64,000 bases of DNA from Paenibacillus sp. sptzw28 (GTDB taxonomy: Bacteria; Bacillota; Bacilli; Paenibacillales; Paenibacillaceae). The DNA is taken from assembly GCF_019550795.1 (NCBI RefSeq), contig NZ_CP080545.1, positions 4,808,001 through 4,872,000 of the forward strand. Direction: 5' to 3'. The translations under genes were made by a program, and so were the position numbers. The stretch's first letter is position 1, and each line of letters opens with the position of its first letter. A model generated the notes under the pieces. The model ran no database searches and was not told where the DNA came from. It worked only from the letters and a program-made list of their open reading frames with translations. Shown here piece after piece: positions 9,157-23,110 of this stretch.

Positions 9157-9570
9157 TTAAACGGGAAATAGCCGTTCGACCTGGTTCAGCACGTTGTTTG
9201 CTTTCTCGACCCATTCGGGCTCAATCTCAGCATCCGGATCAAGCGGATCCTGGAATTGATCGACCAATCCGCCGAAGGTACGGGGCACCGTATTGGCGGA
9301 AGTCCCTTCGTTATAGACATGCCTCAGTACAAAAGGCTGGCCGATGCGGATTTTCGCGTCGTTCTCCACTGTCTCGCTGTCCGTGTTGCCATTAATCACT
9401 TCAAAAGGGATTCTGAGCCATACTTTGTGCGCTTCATCCAGATAGCGGTCGAATGAACCATGGTCATATTCCCAGCCGCCTCCGAGCGCAAATTCATGCT
9501 CCTCCAGCAAATTCTTGATTTCGACAAACTCCTGCTCGCGGGATTCCAGCTTGGAAGATAGCGGGATCAT
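9157..9570 (-). CDS. YugN-like family protein
   Basis: A 137-residue soluble protein that I recognise as YugN-like by overall sequence: an N-terminal EIKNLLEEHEFALGGGWEYDHGSFDRYLD, a middle WLRIPFEVINGN and C-terminal DPDAEIEPEWVEKANNVLNQVERLFP. No catalytic motif or membrane segment is visible and its function is unknown. AAGGAG stands about 11 bases before the ATG. It has its own terminator and shows no functional link to the flanking htrA or lia genes. Confidence 0.65.
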   Translation of the reverse strand: MIPLSSKLESREQEFVEIKNLLEEHEFALGGGWEYDHGSFDRYLDEAHKVWLRIPFEVINGNTDSETVENDAKIRIGQPFVLRHVYNEGTSANTVPRTFGGLVDQFQDPLDPDAEIEPEWVEKANNVLNQVERLFPV

Positions 9571-13975: not shown

Positions 13976-14521
13976 CTACATCGGACGAGCGTCGGAGTGG
14001 CCGTCCAACTTCTTAAGCTGCAGCTTGCTGCGGTGGATCCGGGCTTTGACCGTCCCAAGCGGGACCTTCATGGCATCGGCGATTTCCTGGTCTTTGAAGC
14101 CGTAATAAAATTTGTACAATAGCATCGTTCGGGAACGGGGGTCAAGCAATCCAAGCAGCTCGGATATTTCAAACTGGATGCCGGACTCAACATGGCATGC
14201 TTGTTCCGCAAATTCTCCATTCGAATCAAGTCGGCTGCTTCCTTGCTCCCGCATGGTTTGCTTGTTTAGGTTAAGAGCCACATTAGCGGTGATCGTCTTT
14301 GCCCACGAATTCAGCTTGCTCCGCTCCTTCAACGTTTCATGCTTCGTCAAAATTCTGACCCATGCCTCCTGGACCGCATCCTGAGCATCGGTCTTATTAA
14401 TGACCTTCGAATATGCCACACGGATCATTTCGCTGTATAATTGCCGCAGCTTCTCCTCAATTTGTTCCAAGTCCGGAGGATTCCGGTCATCGTTTGACAA
14501 AAAAGGATATTCACTAACCAT
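13976..14521 (-). CDS. ECF-type RNA polymerase sigma factor
   Basis: A 181-residue group IV sigma factor. Region 2 (about 25-95) contains LYSEMIRVAYSKV and DAQDAVQEAWVRIL. Region 4 (about 120-172) contains LLDPRSRTMLLYKFYYGFKDQEIADAM and VPLGTVKARIHRSKLQLKKL. No anti-sigma gene is adjacent, which is unusual: the downstream neighbour is a terminator and the upstream one a 3D-domain protein. Control must lie elsewhere or be transcriptional. SD GGTGGGG is found upstream of the ATG. Confidence 0.88.
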   Translation of the reverse strand: MVSEYPFLSNDDRNPPDLEQIEEKLRQLYSEMIRVAYSKVINKTDAQDAVQEAWVRILTKHETLKERSKLNSWAKTITANVALNLNKQTMREQGSSRLDSNGEFAEQACHVESGIQFEISELLGLLDPRSRTMLLYKFYYGFKDQEIADAMKVPLGTVKARIHRSKLQLKKLDGHSDARPM

Positions 14522-14598
14522 AGACTACCGCCCCACCTAGATAAGGATAGCGTTTAGACTCATTTTAGCATACCGTTTCTTTAAAAAAAAGAAGATTA

Positions 14599-14623
14599 TA
14601 CAACAAATTACAAGGTTGTTGTA
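14599..14623. repeat. Palindrome between the 3D gene and the sigma gene
   Basis: TACAACAA-N9-TTGTTGTA, perfect 8-base arms. On the minus strand a TATAAT overlaps its 3' arm and an eight-T run follows. It could be an operator at the sigma promoter or a weak AT-rich terminator of the 3D gene. Confidence 0.45.
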
Positions 14624-14643
14624 CAATCCTCAACAATATCACA

Positions 14644-15216
14644 TTATGATTTTAGCAGAGAATCGGGGATAGTCTTCTCCGCAGTCACCGCATCATTCAG
14701 CGCGTTCAGCCAAGCTTCGGTCAGCTTTCCGCGGCCTTGTTTAAGAATGAATACATCTACTTTACGCTTGCCCCATTGTTTGAACACTTGTTTTTTCGTT
14801 TCGAAATACAAGTCGATTTTATTGCCTTTGATCGCCGAACCGGTGTCTGCGACAACTCCGTATCCGTAGCCGGGAATGTATAGAAGAGTCCCAATCGGAA
14901 ACACTTTAGGGTCGGCCGCTATTGTGGAAACGAAATCGCGTCTGACCTTTACGCCCGAGTAGGTGATTCCGTACTGCGGATGCCCCGGTTTTTTCCCGGT
15001 CGATTCGACGCCGGCCGTATAGCCGGTCGCAATAACATGAAGATGCTTCCGATCTTTAAGAAGTCTGTTTGATTGGTGAGCGGACCGCCCGTGGCGATGA
15101 TCGGTTTTACCGAGATCCATTACGGTGAAATCCGCAGATATGCTTGTAATAACGACTGCTCCCGTGACCATTATGACCGTCAGGACCCGCCGGAACGACA
15201 TAAAGCTTGTCATCAT
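14644..15216 (-). CDS. Secreted 3D-domain protein (MltA-like fold)
   Basis: A 190-residue exported protein. An N-terminal hydrophobic segment (about 8-30) serves as signal or anchor. The C-terminal 3D domain (about 60-165) has [44 protein letters not shown], which carry the conserved aspartates of this peptidoglycan-hydrolase-related fold (as in YuiC and YocH). Its role is probably muramidase-like wall processing. SD GAGGGGG lies about 10 bases before the ATG. It follows thrS without a clear terminator, so read-through is possible. Confidence 0.82.
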
Positions 15217-15303
15217 TTGGATGTTGCCCCCTCAATATGGAGGTTGCCCTAATGCGACAAGCTTTATTCAGCATTCTATGAAATTGATTGATAGAGTAAT
15301 AGA

Positions 15304-17241
15304 TTAAACCTGCTTGGAGTTGATCTCTTCCCGAAGAAGTTCAATAGCTTCGACAATCGGCTTAGCTCCAATGTCCCCTTCTCCACGCTTGCGGATCGAC
15401 ACCGTGCCGGATTGCGCCTCATTATCGCCTACGACCAGCATATACGGCGCTTTCTCAAGCTGCGCTTCACGGATCTTGTAGCCGAGCTTCTCGTTGCGGA
15501 GGTCGGCTTCCACGCGAATTCCGGCCAGCTGCAGCTTCTCTTCGACCTCGTGGGCATACGCTTCATAAGCGGTTGATACCGGGATGATCTTCGCTTGAAC
15601 CGGTGACAGCCACAACGGCAGCGCGCCGGCGAAATTCTCAAGCAGGAAGGCCGTCATCCGCTCCATCGTACTAATAATGCCGCGGTGGATAACTACAGGT
15701 CTGTGCTTCTTGCCGTCGTCTCCCACATATTCAAGCTCAAAGCGTTCCGGCAGCAGAAAATCAAGCTGTGCGGTGGACAGCGTCTCTTCCTTGCCAAGCG
15801 CCGTCTTAATCTGAACGTCAAGCTTCGGCCCGTAGAATGCGGCTTCGCCCTCTGCTTCAAAGAACGGCAATCCAAGCTCTTCCACGACCTCACGCAGCAT
15901 GCGCTGAGACATCTCCCACATCTCGTCATTCGGGAAATACTTCTCGGTATCGTGAGGATCCCGGTAGGAAAGGCGGAACCGGTACTCTTTAATGCCGAAG
16001 TCCTCGTAAACCTGGCGGATCAAGTTGATAACACGGGCGAATTCATCCTTAATCTGGTCGGGACGGCAAAAAATATGCGCATCGTTAAGAGTCATTGCGC
16101 GGACGCGGTGAAGCCCGGTGAGGGCGCCGGACATTTCGTATCTATGCATAGTGCCAAGCTCAGCCACCCGTACCGGAAGATCACGGTAGGACCGCATCTC
16201 GCTCTTGAATATCATCATATGGTGCGGGCAGTTCATCGGACGCAGGACGAGCTCCTCATTGTCCATTATCATTTTCGGGAACATGTCTTCACTGTAATGC
16301 TCCCAGTGTCCGCTCGTTTTGTACAGCTCGACATTCGCCAGCACCGGTGTGTATACGTGCTGATAACCAAGCCGCTCCTCGAGATCGACGATATACCGCT
16401 CCATCGTACGGCGCAGCTTCGCGCCGTTCGGCAGCCACAATGGCAAACCTTGTCCGACCTCACGGGAGAACGTGAACATTTTCAGCTCTCGGCCGAGCTT
16501 CCTGTGATCGCGTTTCTTGGCTTCTTCCAGAAAATGAAGGTGCTCGTCAAGCTGCGATTTTTTTGGGAAAGCCGTACCATATATACGCTGCAGCATTTTA
16601 TTTTTCGAATCGCCCCGCCAGTAAGCACCGGCAACGCTGAGCAGCTTGAACGCTTTAATTCGGCCTGTGGACGGCAGATGAGGTCCGCGGCACAGATCAA
16701 AAAACTCCCCCTGATCGTAGATGGTAAGCTCAGCTTCCGCCGGAAGGTCGCGGATAAGCTCCAGCTTCAGCGGATCGCCAAGATCCGTAAAGATTGCGAT
16801 CGCTTCCTCACGGCTGACGACCCGCCTCCGGATCGGCAGATTCTCCTGCACGATGCGCTCCATCTCTTTCTCGATTTTCGTCAGATCCTCCGGGGTAAGC
16901 GATTGCTCCATATCGATGTCGTAATAAAAGCCATCCTCGATGACGGGGCCGATCCCGAGCTTTACTTCCGTTTTTCCGTAAAGCCGTTTGATAGCCTGAG
17001 CCATTAAATGCGCTGTGCTGTGGCGGTATACTTCAAGGCCGTCCGGTGTGTCCACGGTCACGAGCTCAACGGCAGAATCACCTTCGAGCGGTGTATAAAC
17101 GTCCACCACCTTGCCGTCTACCTTACCGGCTATCGCATTTTTCTTCAGACCGGGGCTTATTGAGCCCGCGACATCTTCAACAGTCGTACCCTGTTCATAC
17201 TCCCTGACTGCGCCGTCCGGCAGCTTCACTTGAATTGCCAT
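15304..17241 (-). CDS. thrS: Threonyl-tRNA synthetase
   Basis: Charges tRNA-Thr. Full-length (645 aa): TGS domain 1-60, editing domain with [11 protein letters not shown] (about 73) and [12 protein letters not shown], class II catalytic core with motif 2 [11 protein letters not shown], and an anticodon-binding domain from about 535 ([16 protein letters not shown]). SD AGGAGG stands seven bases before the ATG. Control is by a Thr-specific T-box leader. Between the T-box terminator and the SD lie four hairpin repeats, giving an unusually long attenuator-to-start distance of about 200 bases. Confidence 0.97.
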
Positions 17242-17255
17242 GATTTATCCTCCTA

Positions 17256-17438
17256 AAAGTTTTTGTGACGAAGGAGCAAAAACTCACTTCGTAAGCATCC
17301 GCCTGGTTTTTGTGACGAAGGAGCAAAAACTCGCTTCGTAAGCATCCGCCTTGTTTTTGTGACGAAGGAGCAAAAACTCGCTTCGTAAGCATCCGCCTGG
17401 TTTTTGTGACGAAGGAGCAAAACTCGCTTCGAAGCGAG
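17256..17438. repeat. Hairpin-repeat array A (4 copies, 47-bp period) in the thrS leader
   Basis: Four copies start at 17260, 17307, 17354 and 17401. On the minus (thrS) strand each is a hairpin GTTTTTG-CTCCTTCGTCA-CAAAAAC, joined by a linker ending ATGCTTACGAAGCGA. The copy next to thrS runs CAAAAACTTTTAGGAGG straight into the thrS SD. The outer end is a perfect palindrome, CTCGCTTC-GAAGCGAG (17423-17438). 47 is not a multiple of three, so the array is not protein-coding. It shares its core with array B upstream of ytxC. Confidence 0.9.
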
Positions 17439-17444
17439 GTGCGC

Positions 17445-17740
17445 AGACAACAAAAAAAGCACGCATCCCGCGAAGGGACGAGTGCTTGTCAGACCCGTGG
17501 TTCCACCCTAATTCAACCGGCGCAGCTGCTTGAAACGGAAAACATAGCGCCAATCCTTGAGAATGTTCTGTAACGGGAACGCCCCGGCGCAGCTTACTAC
17601 CCGATTTATCTCAACCCGGATTCAACTGCACAGCTTCAAAGGGGTATATCCGCCGCTAACGTAAGGAAATTTCAGCCAAGTTCCCTCTCTCTGAGACGCG
17701 TGGATCAGCAGATACATGTCTTTGTCAATGCTTTTATATG
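17445..17740 (-). promoter_or_regulatory. Threonine T-box leader of thrS
   Basis: The minus strand carries the T-box core GGGTGGAACCACGGG (about 17494-17508), the terminator GCACTCGTCCC...GGGATGCGTGC followed by seven T (17449-17486), and an AGTAAG-containing stem III area. The specifier loop GATATACCCC presents ACC, a Thr codon (17643-17645). Uncharged tRNA-Thr would stabilise the antiterminator and allow thrS expression. Confidence 0.93.
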
Positions 17741-17746
17741 CACATA

Positions 17747-17775
17747 ATTATAATCCGATGCCACTTAACGGTCAA
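17747..17775 (-). promoter_or_regulatory. Sigma-A promoter of the thrS leader
   Basis: TTGACC, 17 bases, TATAAT on the minus strand. The -35 contains the ytxC stop codon, so the promoter overlaps the end of the preceding gene. Confidence 0.75.
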
Positions 17776-18764
17776 GTCCTTATTCGCTTCGCATTAATTT
17801 GCTTTGGCAGAACAGCGGGAGCAGGCTGATTGGCCTCATTGAAGAAAAACGAGCAGCGGCTGCATTCGACGCACAGCTGTACGCGTTGCTCGAAAATCGT
17901 TTCGAGCGTCCGCATCACCTGTAGTTCCGGGTGACGGGTGTGAATGACGATTTGGTGAGGAGCAACGGTAATAAGCGTACTGACGATCATGTCCTCCATA
18001 TTCATTTCCGACTCAAGCATCTCGGCTACGATCCGGTCTGCAGGGGCCGCTTCCAACAGTTGGAATTGCTCGTCATAAAGCGCAAATTCACTCCCGCCCC
18101 TATGCAGAACATGCACAATCGGCAGCTTTACCTCCTGTATCCTGACAAAATATTTCAACAACGAAATGAATTCCTGGTACTGCTTATCCATCATGTATTC
18201 ATCGACAGCGAATGCGGCAACCTCACGCAGCTCTTCCCAATATGAAGCAAGACGAAACGTAACGAACCCATCCAGATGAATACGTGTATTGACTGCTAAG
18301 AACGCCTCAATCTCAGCTGCCACTTTGTTCTGCCGGCGTTCCCTGTCGATTTGGAGCATATCGGAATCAGCGCCTTCCCCGTCGAGGGAAGAAGGAATAC
18401 CGCTAAACAACAGGTTCCGGCAGTATTGCTCCACCATTTCCACTTCTTTGGGGTCGTCATAGTGGAATTGCTTGCGAATAATCGCCCGAAGCAGCAGCGG
18501 CTCGATTTCCGTCAAAATATATCTTGCGAAGGCGGTAGCGGCTTTCCGGTATACAAGGGGGCCGTGAACAGGAAGTTTAAATTCGGGAAGCCCCGCGTTG
18601 CATTGAATCTCCTTGCTTTCGTAATTAGGAGTAAAAGCAACGGAAACATCGCCGATCGTGTCCTGAACATTATGTAAATCGACGAATTCATCGTTCAAAC
18701 TCCTGTGCAGCCGATCAACCGCATCGGTTGAAGCCGATATCAAGGAAACAGTGAACAGTTCCAT
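17772..18764 (-). CDS. ytxC: YtxC-like putative sporulation protein
   Basis: A 330-residue protein assigned to the YtxC family from sequence and from its place directly upstream of thrS, as in B. subtilis. Features: an N-terminal ferredoxin-like stretch (MELFTVSLISASTD), a central helical part (AFARYILTEIEPLLLRAIIRKQ; FVTFRLASYWEELREVAAFAVDEY), and a C-terminal CVECSRCSFFF that could bind metal. Its biochemical role is unknown. The ATG at 18764 has AGGGGTG five bases upstream. This SD is fused to the last unit of repeat array B. Confidence 0.8.
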   Translation of the reverse strand: MELFTVSLISASTDAVDRLHRSLNDEFVDLHNVQDTIGDVSVAFTPNYESKEIQCNAGLPEFKLPVHGPLVYRKAATAFARYILTEIEPLLLRAIIRKQFHYDDPKEVEMVEQYCRNLLFSGIPSSLDGEGADSDMLQIDRERRQNKVAAEIEAFLAVNTRIHLDGFVTFRLASYWEELREVAAFAVDEYMMDKQYQEFISLLKYFVRIQEVKLPIVHVLHRGGSEFALYDEQFQLLEAAPADRIVAEMLESEMNMEDMIVSTLITVAPHQIVIHTRHPELQVMRTLETIFEQRVQLCVECSRCSFFFNEANQPAPAVLPKQINAKRIRT

Positions 18765-18776
18765 ACGCTCACCCCT

Positions 18777-19212
18777 AAAAGTTTTTGCGTGGCTCTGCCT
18801 GACCGAGCCGCTATCGGGCGAGGTCAAGCAAAAACTCACTTCGGAAGCATAAGCTAAAAGTTTTTGCGTGGCTCTGCCTGACCGAGCCGCTATCGGGCGA
18901 GGTCAAGCAAAAACTCACTTCGGAAGCATAAGCTAAAAGTTTTTGCGTGGCTCTGCCTGACCGAGCCGCTATCGGGCGAGGTCAAGCAAAAACTCACTTC
19001 GGAAGCATAAGCTAAAAGTTTTTGCGTGGCTCTGCCTGACCGAGCCGCTATTGGGCGAGATCAAGCAAAAACTCACTTCGGAAGCATAAGCTAAATGTTT
19101 TTGCGTGGCTCTGCCTGACCGAGCCGCTATCGGGCGAGATCAAGCAAAAACTCACTTCGGAAGCATAAGCTGCTTTTGCGTGGCTCTGCCTGACCGAGCC
19201 GCTATCCAGCGA
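18777..19212. repeat. Hairpin-repeat array B (5 full copies plus 1 partial, 79-bp period) upstream of ytxC
   Basis: Copies begin at 18777, 18856, 18935, 19014 and 19093, with a truncated sixth from 19172. On the minus strand each has arms GTTTTTGC and GCAAAAAC around an insert holding further dyads (TGACC/GGTCA; GGCTC/GAGCC). The linker TTTTAGCTTATGCTTCCGAAGTGA has the same core as array A. Copies 1-3 are identical; 4 and 5 differ by a few bases, so expansion is recent. The end nearest ytxC reads AAAAACTTTTAGGGGTG, merging with the ytxC SD. Confidence 0.92.
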
Positions 19213-19317
19213 GGTAAACTCGGATGACGTCGTACGTTATTTGTTTTTTCTTGTATTAAGTATATGGTCCGGATGGGGCATATATACGATGCATACTATG
19301 GTGGCACTGGCAGGGGA

Positions 19318-19346
19318 TTGGAATGAAAGTGTATTCGTGGTATATT
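19318..19346 (+). promoter_or_regulatory. Promoter of the diguanylate cyclase gene
   Basis: TTGGAA, 17 bases, TATATT, 38 bases before the ATG. The remaining stretch 19213-19317 shows no gene. Confidence 0.6.
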
Positions 19347-19383
19347 GAATTTCGTACGAAGTTGGCCTTTGGAGTGAAACTTT

Positions 19384-20493
19384 ATGGACTACGAATCACT
19401 TGATTATAACCGTTATCGTTGGAATCGGATGCTGCTGACAGGCTTTTGGGCTATTTTGATTATCTCCCTGTTTTTGGAAGGTTTGTATTTAACGATAACG
19501 GAAATGCCTGCAGGTTCGTTTATTCCGAAATTTATCGTCAAACCGACCATTCTGCAGCTGACCGCGCTATTGTTTGCCGAGACCGCACTGAAGGTGCTTA
19601 AAGGCAAATATCAGGATTATATTCTCATACTTACATCTGCTTTGTTAGCCTATATACTCGTCTATATCCACGATTCGGTTAATTTTTTGCTTCTGGCCTT
19701 GTTCATGCCCGTCATTGTTTCCATCTTTTATTTTCAACCGCGGAAATTAGTTTTTGCCTTAGGAAACACGCTTCTGTCGGTCTATGTTATGTATCTGGCC
19801 AACGAATTTATGCACCGGGAAATCTCACTTGTGGGCTTGACGACGATAACCGTCATGTTTTCCGCTTTTTCACTCGTTGCATGGGGAATTATCATGCGCG
19901 GCAGGGAGCTCATGAGTAACCTTAAATCATATTACGAATCCAATCAGCAGCTGCTTGTCAAAACCATATGGATGGACAAGATGGTAAAGACCGATGCTTT
20001 GACGGATCTATATAATCATATGACCTTTCACGAATATTTTGAAAAGCTTATTGAACAGCACGAACAACACAACCTTCCGCTTCAACTCGCCCTTATCGAT
20101 ATCGATAACTTCAAACAGATCAATGATACGTATGGCCATCGTGCAGGGGATTCCGTTCTCCGCGAAGTGGCGGAAATGATTCGCAGCAAAGCGAATTCGA
20201 ACGACTTTGTGGCCCGCTACGGAGGTGAAGAGTTCGCGATGCTCTTTACGGATAAATCAAAGGCTGACGCGCTTTCAGTTGTTGAACAAATCAGGCAGAA
20301 GATATCGGAAAAACCGCATGATGCTCTTGGCGGAAAGCCTGTGACGGTTAGCATCGGTTTTGGGGAATACACATTAGGGGACGGTAAAGAACGTTTTTTC
20401 ACTCAGGTGGATACTGCGCTGTATAAAGCGAAGAGCTCGGGTAAGAACAAAACTGTAGTCGCTATTGAATCGTTAGAAAGCCAGCTGGCATAA
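19384..20493 (+). CDS. Membrane-bound diguanylate cyclase (GGDEF)
   Basis: Makes c-di-GMP from two GTP. Six hydrophobic segments fill residues about 15-185, forming an integral sensor domain with no family I recognise. A GGDEF domain follows (about 200-365): DALTDLYNHMTF, DIDNFKQINDTYGH, active-site RYGGEEF near 279, and the C-terminal DTALYKAKSSGKN. The RxxD inhibitory I-site is absent upstream of GGEEF, so classic product inhibition is unlikely. SD GGAGTG is seven bases before the ATG. Monocistronic. Confidence 0.9.
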   Translation: MDYESLDYNRYRWNRMLLTGFWAILIISLFLEGLYLTITEMPAGSFIPKFIVKPTILQLTALLFAETALKVLKGKYQDYILILTSALLAYILVYIHDSVNFLLLALFMPVIVSIFYFQPRKLVFALGNTLLSVYVMYLANEFMHREISLVGLTTITVMFSAFSLVAWGIIMRGRELMSNLKSYYESNQQLLVKTIWMDKMVKTDALTDLYNHMTFHEYFEKLIEQHEQHNLPLQLALIDIDNFKQINDTYGHRAGDSVLREVAEMIRSKANSNDFVARYGGEEFAMLFTDKSKADALSVVEQIRQKISEKPHDALGGKPVTVSIGFGEYTLGDGKERFFTQVDTALYKAKSSGKNKTVVAIESLESQLA

Positions 20494-20497
20494 CCAA

Positions 20498-20546
20498 AAG
20501 AGCCCCTTAGCGCCGTCGACATTCCGATCGCGCAAGGGGCTCTTAT
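20498..20546. terminator. Bidirectional terminator between the cyclase and mqnC
   Basis: AAGAGCCCCTT pairs with AAGGGGCTCTT across about 24 bases; it serves two convergent genes. Confidence 0.75.
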
Positions 20547-20555
20547 CCATATCTA

Positions 20556-21692
20556 TCAATTTTGCATTACGAAGTCGTGCTCGACTCCGTCCGTTTCATT
20601 ATAAACTTTCAAAATTTGATATTTCGTATTGCGCTGAGCCGGTATCTTCCCCGTTTCGCGAATTAATTGCAGTATGAGTTCGATATTCACTTTATGCGTC
20701 GTCCCGGCGGCAGAGACAACATTCTCCTCGATCATCGTGCTGCCGAAATCATTACAGCCGTAAGAGAGCGAGAGCTTGCCGATCTCCGGCCCCATCGTAA
20801 CCCAGGAGGACTGAAAGTTATCAATATTATCAAGCGCGATTCTGCTGATGGCGAGCGTCTTCAAGTATTCCTCCGGCGTCGCTTTCTCCCGCTTCATATT
20901 CGTATTCTCCGGCTGGAACGTCCACGGAATAAAGGCAAGGAATCCGGGTGTGTTATAACCGTTCGCTATACATTCGTCCTGCGCCTCGCGGACGCGAAGC
21001 AAATGAAGGGCGCGCTCCTCCATCTCCTCGCCGAAGCCTATTACCATCGTAGCAGTGGTATTCATATTCAGGCGATGCGCGGCCTTCATTACGTCCATCC
21101 AGTCCGTCCAGGAACCTTTGAGCCGGCTGATCTTCCTTCTTGTCCGATCATCGAGAATCTCTCCGCCGCCCCCTGGCAGCGAATCGAGTCCCGCCTCATG
21201 CAGCTGGCGAACGACCTCGTCGAGCGACAGACCTTCCGAAACATCGCGCATTTTATGAATTTCAGCCGGGGAGAACGAGTGCATTGTAATTCCCGGGAAG
21301 TGAGATTTAATTTTACGGAGCAAATCGATGTAATACGTGAACGGCAGATTCGGATTGGTGCCTCCCTGCATTAATATTTCCGTGCCGCCGACGTTTATCG
21401 TTTCTTGAATCTTTTGCAGGATGACCTCATCGGGAAGCACATAACCTTCCGGAGACCCGGGCGCCCGGTAAAACGCGCAGAAACGGCAGTAAACGTCGCA
21501 TACGTTCGTGTAATTGATATTACGTCCGACTACGAAAGTCGTGATTGGTTCAGGGTGGCGCCGCTCCATAAGGATGTTGGCGGCATGGCCCATTTTCTCA
21601 ATTTCATCGGACTCAAACAGCGTAACGACCTGTTCAAGCCCAAGCCGATTTCCATCCAGCGCGTCTTTCAGTATCCGATCCACTTGACTCAT
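20556..21692 (-). CDS. mqnC: Dehypoxanthine futalosine cyclase MqnC (radical SAM)
   Basis: Cyclises dehypoxanthine futalosine in the alternative (futalosine) route to menaquinone. The radical-SAM cluster cysteines are C65, C69 and C72 in CDVYCRFC; GGTEILMQGGTNP and FIPWTFQPENT are MqnC-typical. The start is the ATG at 21692, with GGAGGG 11 bases upstream; the longer frame has no SD. 378 residues, normal. No other mqn genes lie in the window. It implies that this organism uses the futalosine pathway instead of menFDHCEB. No convincing promoter in 21693-21850. Confidence 0.9.
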   Translation of the reverse strand: MSQVDRILKDALDGNRLGLEQVVTLFESDEIEKMGHAANILMERRHPEPITTFVVGRNINYTNVCDVYCRFCAFYRAPGSPEGYVLPDEVILQKIQETINVGGTEILMQGGTNPNLPFTYYIDLLRKIKSHFPGITMHSFSPAEIHKMRDVSEGLSLDEVVRQLHEAGLDSLPGGGGEILDDRTRRKISRLKGSWTDWMDVMKAAHRLNMNTTATMVIGFGEEMEERALHLLRVREAQDECIANGYNTPGFLAFIPWTFQPENTNMKREKATPEEYLKTLAISRIALDNIDNFQSSWVTMGPEIGKLSLSYGCNDFGSTMIEENVVSAAGTTHKVNIELILQLIRETGKIPAQRNTKYQILKVYNETDGVEHDFVMQN

Positions 21693-21856
21693 ATCGATTA
21701 AGTCCCTCCTATTCCGTTCCTGGCTCCTAATTGTCTTCCTCATCGTAACATAAAAAGACTGCCGCAGTCATCAGACAGGCAAGACCGGCGGACCTTTTTA
21801 TACCGTTTGTTCAGCAATTATTCACAGGAATTCGGCTCTGCGGAACAGAATAAAGA

Positions 21857-21890
21857 AACCGTAAGCGAACTGTCACGTCCGCTTACGGTT
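21857..21890 (-). terminator. Terminator of the metA-metI-patB operon
   Basis: AACCGTAAGCG and CGCTTACGGTT arms, then TTCTTTATT on the minus strand. Confidence 0.7.
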
Positions 21891-21916
21891 ATCCAGCCTG
21901 TCAATTCGCAATCCCC

Positions 21917-23110
21917 CTAGTCTGCTGCAGCGGCCTGACGAACCGATGCTGCAAAACGTTCGAGTGCGGCCTCTAATATTGAGCGCGGACACGCGAGATT
22001 AACCCGCAGAAACCCGGCGCCCTGTTTGCCGAATACCGAGCCTTCGCTGAACGCAACTCCCGCTTGTTCGAACATAAGCTTCTTTAACTGCCGGGGGTCC
22101 GCTGAAATAGCGCTGCAGTCCATCCAAACCATATAGGTTCCTTCGGGCTTTATGACCTTTATTTGCGGGAGCTCGGATTGGATAAAGCGAATGAGCGTAT
22201 TCAGATTGCCCTCCAGATAGTCCATAAGCTGCTCCAGCCATTCCTCGCCATAATTATAGCTGCTCTCGACGGCGGTCAAGCCGAAATAGCTTTCCATGTG
22301 CAGGGATAGTGTCTTCAGCAAGTAGTTGTATTTCGTCCGCAGCTCGTCGTTCGGAATAATAACCGATGCAGTCTGCAGACCCGCGAGATTAAACGTTTTG
22401 CTCGGCGCGATGCAAGTAAAGGATATTTGCGCGAAGGCGTCCGAAATCGACGCGAACGGCGTATGGTGATGCCCCCGGAAAACAAGGTCGTGATGGATCT
22501 CGTCTGCAACGACCAGCACGCCGTGCTTCAGGCAAATATCACCGATCCGCTCCAGTTCTGCGCGCGTCCACACACGTCCGCCCGGATTGTGCGGCGAGCA
22601 TAAGAGCAGCAGCTTCGCCCCCTCCTGCGCCTGGCGCTCAAGCAGGTCGAAATCGATCGAATACCGGCCATCCTCCAGAATAAGCGGGTTATCTTCTACG
22701 ACACGCCCGTTCATCTTGATCACATCGTAGAAAGGATAATATACCGGCGATTGCAGGATGACACGATCCCCGGGCTCGGTATTTGCGAGCACAATCATGC
22801 TTAGCGCAGGCACGACGCCCGGGCTCGATGTGATCCATTCGTGGCGCACGTTCCAGCCATGGCGGCGGGAAAGCCAGCCGCTCACCGCTTCAAAGTAAGA
22901 GTCCGGCCGGAATGTGTAACCGTAAATTCCCAGCTCAGCCCGCTTCTTAATCGCCTCCACTACTTCCTGCGGCGGCTCGAAGTCCATATCCGCAACCCAT
23001 AGCGGCAGTATGTCCTCACGGCCGAACAGCTTCTCGGACTGATCCCATTTATAAGAGGCTGTACCTCTGCGGTCAATCAGCCGATCAAAATCATACTTGA
23101 TTCCTGCCAT
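21917..23110 (-). CDS. patB: Cystathionine beta-lyase, MalY/PatB type
   Basis: PLP enzyme cleaving cystathionine to homocysteine, pyruvate and ammonia. Fold type I aminotransferase-like: PLWVADMDFEPP near 35, CSPHNPGGR, VADEIHHDL, and the PLP lysine in APSKTFNLAG. 397 residues. Third gene of the methionine operon; the stop of metI and this ATG are separated by a few bases, with GGGGAGG overlapping the end of metI. In B. subtilis the corresponding step is done by MetC; here the MalY/PatB type takes its position. Confidence 0.88.
   Translation of the reverse strand: MAGIKYDFDRLIDRRGTASYKWDQSEKLFGREDILPLWVADMDFEPPQEVVEAIKKRAELGIYGYTFRPDSYFEAVSGWLSRRHGWNVRHEWITSSPGVVPALSMIVLANTEPGDRVILQSPVYYPFYDVIKMNGRVVEDNPLILEDGRYSIDFDLLERQAQEGAKLLLLCSPHNPGGRVWTRAELERIGDICLKHGVLVVADEIHHDLVFRGHHHTPFASISDAFAQISFTCIAPSKTFNLAGLQTASVIIPNDELRTKYNYLLKTLSLHMESYFGLTAVESSYNYGEEWLEQLMDYLEGNLNTLIRFIQSELPQIKVIKPEGTYMVWMDCSAISADPRQLKKLMFEQAGVAFSEGSVFGKQGAGFLRVNLACPRSILEAALERFAASVRQAAAAD

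Follow-up and report, generated by a model that had tools for sequence, protein, structure and literature searches.

A family of Shine–Dalgarno-docked hairpin repeats in Paenibacillales, MIRU-like in location, that retains its structure and probably tunes mRNA

Introduction

REP/RAYT elements are dispersed hairpins, and we know of none docked at Shine–Dalgarno (SD) sequences. MIRU elements vary in tandem copy number. BOX, RUP and SPRITE repeats, which have been interpreted as parasites, share features with MITEs and are reported to be enriched between convergent genes (PMC3049150). MIRUs, in turn, are reported to insert at start codons and to have minimal impact on expression (PMC12548453).

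Here we describe two tandem arrays in a window of 64,000 nucleotides from Paenibacillus sp. sptzw28, together with the repeat family to which they belong. Judged from sequence and its comparison across genomes, these are best read as RNA hairpin repeats docked at SD sequences, MIRU-like in location and retained in structure, which probably tune mRNA.

Results

Two arrays with a common frame run into the SD sequences of thrS and ytxC

Both arrays are read on the minus strand, array A into thrS and array B into a ytxC-like gene, and both terminate in CAAAAACTTTTAGG, which runs into the SD. Tandem Repeats Finder and the sequence itself confirm an initial sequence-only reading, in which two hairpin-repeat arrays with a common frame were each said to be fused to an SD. 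Array A (17259-17435, minus strand; 3.8 copies of 47 bp by Tandem Repeats Finder) consists of four 47-bp units, the 5′-most of which is degenerate, and its outer stem GTTTTTG/CAAAAAC encloses the insert CTCCTTCGTCA. It is placed between a T-box leader upstream (17471-17737, minus strand; RF00230, 87.6 bits, E 3.9e-19, which falls under the gathering score of 93 bits) and the thrS SD, AGGAGG (17249-17254, minus strand), located 4 nt past the final AAAAC of the array. The gene itself encodes threonine–tRNA ligase (15304-17241, minus strand; TIGR00418, 758.8 bits). The genome has another threonyl-tRNA synthetase gene at G000:C1:1306326-1308236, which shares 58% identity with the thrS of the window.

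Array B (18776-19218, minus strand; 5.6 copies of 79 bp at 18775-19215 by Tandem Repeats Finder) comprises five 79-bp units and a partial unit at 19174-19218, and its outer stem GTTTTTGC/GCAAAAAC encloses an insert longer than that of array A. The three identical copies noticed within it at the outset are indeed 100% identical, and two further copies are 97% identical. The ytxC SD, read from the sequence as AGGGG (18772-18776, minus strand), is followed by a ytxC-like sporulation gene (17772-18764, minus strand; TIGR02834, 194.3 bits, slightly below the cut-off of 206.95); for context, a divergent GGDEF-domain gene (19384-20493, plus strand) lies past the 5′ end of the array. Across the window, GAAGYGAGTTTTTG (≤2 mismatches) occurs 11 times vs 1.17 expected from shuffles, and CAAAAACTTTTAG occurs 7 times vs 1.72.

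The family mostly stands before SD sequences

A search of the 6.10-Mb genome for the core ATGCTTMCGAAGYGAGTTTTTG (≤3 mismatches) gives 113 matches, and none for the reversed control. The GTTTTTG...CAAAAAC frame first taken as common to the arrays does hold in A and B, but it does not serve the family as an invariant core. At other sites of the genome the arms differ (TTTTGC/GCAAAA and TTTTTA/TAAAAA, among others), and what varies least is about ATGCTTNCGAAGYRAGTTTT.

Forty stretches of this genome were examined, 30 of which had been positioned on listed core matches, and they contain 47 core clusters (20-mer, ≤3 substitutions). An SD, a start codon and an ORF of ≥40 codons follow in 41 of the 47, whereas random positions from these stretches pass the same test in 1075 of 8000 cases (13%); random placement relative to genes, against which the sequence-only reading had set its regulatory idea, is not what is found. 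The six misses, read from the sequences, are three chance-like 20-mers, one cluster at a stretch end and two degenerate clusters. Copies per cluster range from 1 (23 clusters) up to 22 by the 20-mer criterion. In 24 of the 35 clusters whose arm end AAAC/AAGC could be located (6 had no detected arm end), exactly 4 nt separate it from the SD. Among the matches listed for other species (120 loci), 104 of 136 clusters lead to an SD, a start codon and an ORF, and the gap is exactly 4 nt in 76 of the 103 clusters with an arm end. The 32 misses there comprise stretches that end early, chance 20-mers, two arrays whose SD the test missed and, in a few species, SD-less dispersed repeats. We regard the anatomy and placement of the SD-docked repeats as secure.

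A crude longest-ORF gene caller assigns the upstream gene to the same strand for 31 of 40 clusters of this genome (within 107 nt for 24 of the 31) and to the opposite strand for 9; one further cluster was unreadable. By position, the copies lie in the 5′ leader or the inter-cistronic mRNA of the gene that they front, as a TATAAT box at mutS also suggests. Profile scans covered the downstream proteins of 20 of the 41 clusters, plus thrS, ytxC and mutS. The named genes include rplO, pth, flgG, prsW, tatA, hslO, gyrA, atpD, proA and argS, as well as those for glucose-6-phosphate isomerase, ectoine synthase and fructose-bisphosphate aldolase; they are functionally mixed and have no function in common. 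The gyrA ORF (L046, minus strand, start at 9165) is about 2107 codons long. In its first 600 residues, the part scanned, matches to the general GyrA models extend as far as residue 388; a GyrA model that includes an intein matches as well, which suggests that this gyrA contains one or more inteins.

A platform that binds one dedicated RNA-binding protein or small RNA, with the marked genes as its regulon, would account for a conserved linker and arms around a free insert, for the near-constant distance to the SD and for multimerization. The functional mixture of the named genes and the variation of placement between species argue against such a regulon, which we consider improbable.

The outer stem covaries, and two alternative folds are possible

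Each repeat unit has two parts: a conserved linker (about AAGCNTATGCTTNCGAAGYRAG), in which a 4-bp hairpin GCUU-NCG-AAGY could form, and a larger hairpin whose U-rich and A-rich arms are constant around a free insert. SD-docked copies stand in sense orientation, and their last unit ends about 4 nt before the SD. Covariation was assessed in 143 distinct SD-proximal units, against shuffles that ignore relatedness. Stem position 5, which follows TTTT/AAAA, is Watson–Crick in 93% of units vs a shuffle mean of 40% and maximum of 50% (GC 78, TA 28, CG 16, AT 11), and position 6 in 75% vs a mean of 35% and maximum of 46%. Part of the constancy of TTTT/AAAA is built into the method, because an AAAACT anchor was used to find the 3′ arm. 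Since the outer stem covaries, it appears to be the hairpin that is retained and not its sequence. In the linker hairpin (368 cores, tandem copies counted singly), the base opposite the G of GCTT is C in 197, T in 167, A in 4 and G in 0, and this bias makes the pair nearly always G–C or G–U in the sense RNA.

At stem position 6, 18 of the 143 units place C opposite A, which is unpairable in RNA. The excess of such C–A mismatches over G–U at this position would suit an element that acts at the DNA level, as a single-stranded DNA hairpin or a recombination or replication signal, and tandem hairpins are prone to slippage. The sense orientation, the 4-nt gap to the SD and the predominance of C and T over A and G opposite the linker-hairpin G are all at odds with a DNA-level role, which we hold to be very unlikely. 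We favor action at the RNA level on four grounds: the sense orientation, the docking at the SD, the covariation and the persistence of the element while its inserts turn over.

The outer stem is part of the minimum free energy structure for 40 of 110 mid-length units and 15 of 26 short ones; for the unit of array B that structure is predicted without it. In the mid-length class, the mean duplex energy between linker and insert is −12.97 for a unit's own insert, −12.40 for the inserts of other arrays and −8.50 for shuffled letters, whereas the short class has no such complementarity (−0.02 vs 0.02 and 0.04). The complementarity of the mid-length class is real, well beyond composition and weakly array-specific. 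Several of the printed folds join linker to insert and do not form the outer stem; with both pairings predicted, two alternative folds are possible. RNAalifold, applied to a MAFFT alignment of 106 mid-length units, returns the outer stem alone, at −0.8. A classical H-type pseudoknot between linker and insert was set aside as sterically unlikely on inspection alone.

Predicted accessibility of the SD is not raised by the unit. It is higher with the unit than without it in 19 of 39 cases in this genome (p 0.39) and in 55 of 141 cases in other species, where it is on average lower (p 0.003); compared with a shuffled unit, it is higher in 21 of 39 and 75 of 141 cases. Mean predicted accessibility is 0.413 with the unit, 0.451 with the unit removed and 0.396 with the unit shuffled in this genome (39 units), and 0.368, 0.402 and 0.361, respectively, in other species (141 units). 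We rejected the idea that the unit keeps the SD open, or insulates it by folding, because removal or shuffling does not lower predicted accessibility.

Coupling of an upstream ORF to the gene, as in MIRUs, was also rejected, as the frames that begin at the core ATG show no systematic ORF. Of 174 such frames, 100 end more than 20 nt before the gene start, 40 end within −20 to +10 and 34 end beyond; 9 end in an ATGA-type overlap (+4), about our chance estimate. By raw count, a stop-free frame of some kind runs from core to SD in 159 of 180 arrays.

Arrays at ytxC differ in their inserts between species, and copy number differs between relatives

Leaders read by eye show the element at thrS in 4 of 18 genus members, including the genome studied here, and its absence from 14. 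At ytxC, the core (≤4 substitutions) is found in 9 of the 18 and SD-docked units, which we folded, in 8, the sole core in G007 being degenerate; G003, G004 and G014 keep AAAACTTTTAGGAGTGAGC there without a core. The ytxC inserts differ between species and are alike inside each array. The unit is more stable than its insert shuffles (≤3/200) in 5 of the 8 and fails this comparison in 3. Together with SD docking and covariation, these inserts bear out the proposal of a modular element whose frame is constant, whose insert can be swapped and whose place at the ribosome-binding site is fixed.

The ytxC insert (≤3 mismatches) is confined to ytxC in G006 and G009, and the 79-bp unit of array B has no full-length match above 76% elsewhere in its genome, the nearest being the pth array. 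The ytxC inserts thus look locus-specific in the three genomes checked, which would mean that persistence at this gene is not simple re-invasion. On a ThrS tree, ytxC arrays occur both in a resolved 12-member clade and in the unresolved remainder of the genus; this is consistent with, but not proof of, ancestral arrays with later losses. The element is dispensable, given the many genus members without it at the same gene (thrS, mutS).

A comparison of G010 and G011 showed that 10 of 21 sampled element genes in the former are orthologous to one of 21 sampled in the latter (blastp pairs below 35% identity were left out). Because thrS and ytxC had been sampled deliberately, the overlap minus both is 8 of 19. 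Sites common to G010 and G011 are more frequent than chance. Overlap with the 41 element genes of the genome studied here is 2 of 21 for G010 (thrS, ytxC) and 3 of 21 for G011 (thrS, ytxC and a flgG-like gene). Copy number (cores, ≤3 substitutions) differs in all 10 G010/G011 gene pairs, which supports the first reading in so far as copy number differs between species. The first unit in the ytxC array of G010 is of another type, longer and more degenerate than the short units that come after it, and two loci of this genome (L228, L237) hold mosaic arrays with two or three unit types in one array. A CRISPR array was rejected, since inserts are the same or nearly so in most arrays printed and mosaics are few.

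Copies of the 25-nt array A hairpin (≤3 mismatches) number 37 in the genome and are confined to two places, thrS with 4 and the mutS leader with 33. The mutS array has about 33 units over 1.6 kb (L032 9340-10940; G000:C1:3005340-3006940), with a TATAAT box, found by eye, 23 nt upstream of the first unit. We searched the mutS leaders of 17 relatives for the core (≤4 substitutions), over as much as 700 nt each and over 185 nt in G014: G008 was unreadable, G016 has two units, and the other 15 have no core and carry a similar TATAAT box. As these 15 leaders are otherwise similar, the array was gained in, or lost from, a similar leader. Small indels in the middle mutS units may be assembly errors and could, in our judgment, reflect poor polishing. 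An assembly artefact is refuted for the family by the same core with species-specific inserts in 91 of 198 genomes; it would apply to the exact mutS copy number alone, and as an explanation its probability is negligible.

Within arrays, the SD-proximal core is nearer the consensus than the distal one in 47 arrays vs 13, 50 vs 17 and 61 vs 18 at 2, 3 and 4 substitutions (133, 135 and 139 arrays in total, the remainder ties). This polarity could come from growth at the SD end and not from selection. Identical copies, species-specific inserts and copy-number differences suggest that units multiply and homogenize locally by slippage or unequal recombination. A single instance, in which thrS and mutS carry an identical hairpin, suggests that they occasionally move between loci.

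The core is found in two families of the order

Of 147 genomes sampled from the family, 60 contain the exact core. In a sample from the order it is 91 of 198, all of them in two families, with none among 22 genomes of the other families; the reversed control gave no match in the counts shown for either survey. Counts per genome range from 0 to 80 even inside the genus, some members having none. The 3′ end AAAACTYTTAGGAGG has 11-35 sites in seven genomes (exact-core counts are known for five, G013 and G016 apart) and 1-3 sites in five genus members without the exact core, with one reversed-control match, in the genome studied here; being frequent with the core and rare in genus members without it, this end tracks the core. 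A scan of GTDB genome DNA returned at least 120 stretches. Among the matches listed, 80 titles are all Paenibacillus or Paenibacillaceae (one Gordonibacillus) but one, an Elusimicrobia MAG with a lone match. A literature search by sequence strings and concepts, with subscription titles outside its scope, found no description of this repeat family.

Paenibacillus sp. MSJ-34 (L086, L133, L149) has a dispersed palindrome of ~110 bp with the ATGCTTNCGAAG core inverted at both ends, which is a MITE-like relative of the SD-docked family. By eye, no terminal inverted repeats or target-site duplications were noticed in the SD-docked units themselves; palindromic forms are those of MSJ-34. Other loci (L071, L099, L115, L121, L147 of Paenibacillus phyllosphaerae, L159, L171) carry a dispersed hairpin of the same frame that ends in AAAACTCTGAGGACACCC or similar and not in an SD.

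A selfish or neutral interspersed repeat, MIRU- or BOX-like, would be tolerated where it happens to end in an SD, and its hairpin would serve propagation and not gene control. This is a serious rival, even if we rate it somewhat unlikely. The range of exact-core counts within one genus fits it, as do the array A hairpin at thrS and mutS only, the mutS element in 2 of 17 genomes read with an otherwise similar leader, the SD-less dispersed copies of some species (L071, L086, L099, L107 and others) and the minimal expression impact reported for MIRUs at start codons (PMC12548453). It is opposed by the placement common to G010 and G011, by ytxC inserts that look locus-specific in three genomes and by a search for Y1 transposase (PF01797, the sole transposase family searched), which found none in 11 of 12 genomes, including the one studied here, and a match in G016. 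Parasitic BOX, RUP and SPRITE repeats are reported to prefer gaps between convergent genes (PMC3049150), whereas this family precedes SD sequences. The mobility first proposed for the arrays is thus upheld in part, by the thrS and mutS hairpin and the mutS distribution, and weakened by the missing Y1 transposase and by the sites that G010 and G011 have in common beyond chance.

Discussion

We propose that the arrays are members of a Paenibacillales family of small interspersed repeats that would act as RNA, a reading that we credit about as much as we doubt it. Most probably the SD-docked hairpin would influence what becomes of the mRNA, either by affecting its stability or processing 5′ of the SD or through a factor that binds the linker or the hairpin, and copy number would vary the strength of this effect. 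A bolder form of the proposal, which we advance tentatively and think rather unlikely, is a new kind of cis-acting leader element in Paenibacillales: SD-docked modules would be kept at particular genes while their inserts are wholly replaced, and array copy number would be an evolvable expression setting. If this were true, the mutS array could make the mutation rate itself adjustable.

The family is widespread at the translation starts of core genes, among them thrS, argS, gyrA, rplO, atpD and mutS. It offers a natural experiment in structure-preserving sequence turnover, with the same frame and a different insert per species at one gene, and another in whether the number of tandem repeats might set expression. 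The family bears, too, on annotation, leader prediction and the design of ribosome-binding sites in Paenibacillus.

Among described systems, the family is MIRU-like in location. REP/RAYT elements are likewise dispersed hairpins; mobility through a Y1 transposase was rejected here, as PF01797 was not found in the genome studied. Rfam cis-regulatory leaders such as the T-box resemble the arrays in their 5′ leader location, array A directly following a T-box; unlike them, the arrays match no Rfam family at E ≤ 1, the T-box beside array A being the sole match, and no match at gathering score was found in window positions 14000-22000 or at eight further loci. Pneumococcal BOX elements (boxA-boxB(n)-boxC) are modular like this family, with a tandem internal module and predicted RNA secondary structure (PMC3049150). 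Assignment to the BOX/RUP/SPRITE class was nonetheless rejected: our family stands in sense before SD sequences and no separate end modules were seen, in contrast with the enrichment between convergent genes reported for those repeats. MIRUs, likened here by description, are short dispersed repeats at the start of the downstream gene, as in this family, and the sense orientation at that position, a MIRU trait, holds for 41 of 47 clusters in this genome and, among the matches listed, 104 of 136 in other species. A MIRU is reported to carry an ORF coupled to the gene (PMC12548453), and the present family has no systematic ORF; what it has, unlike a MIRU, is a hairpin with a free insert, docked 4 nt before the SD.
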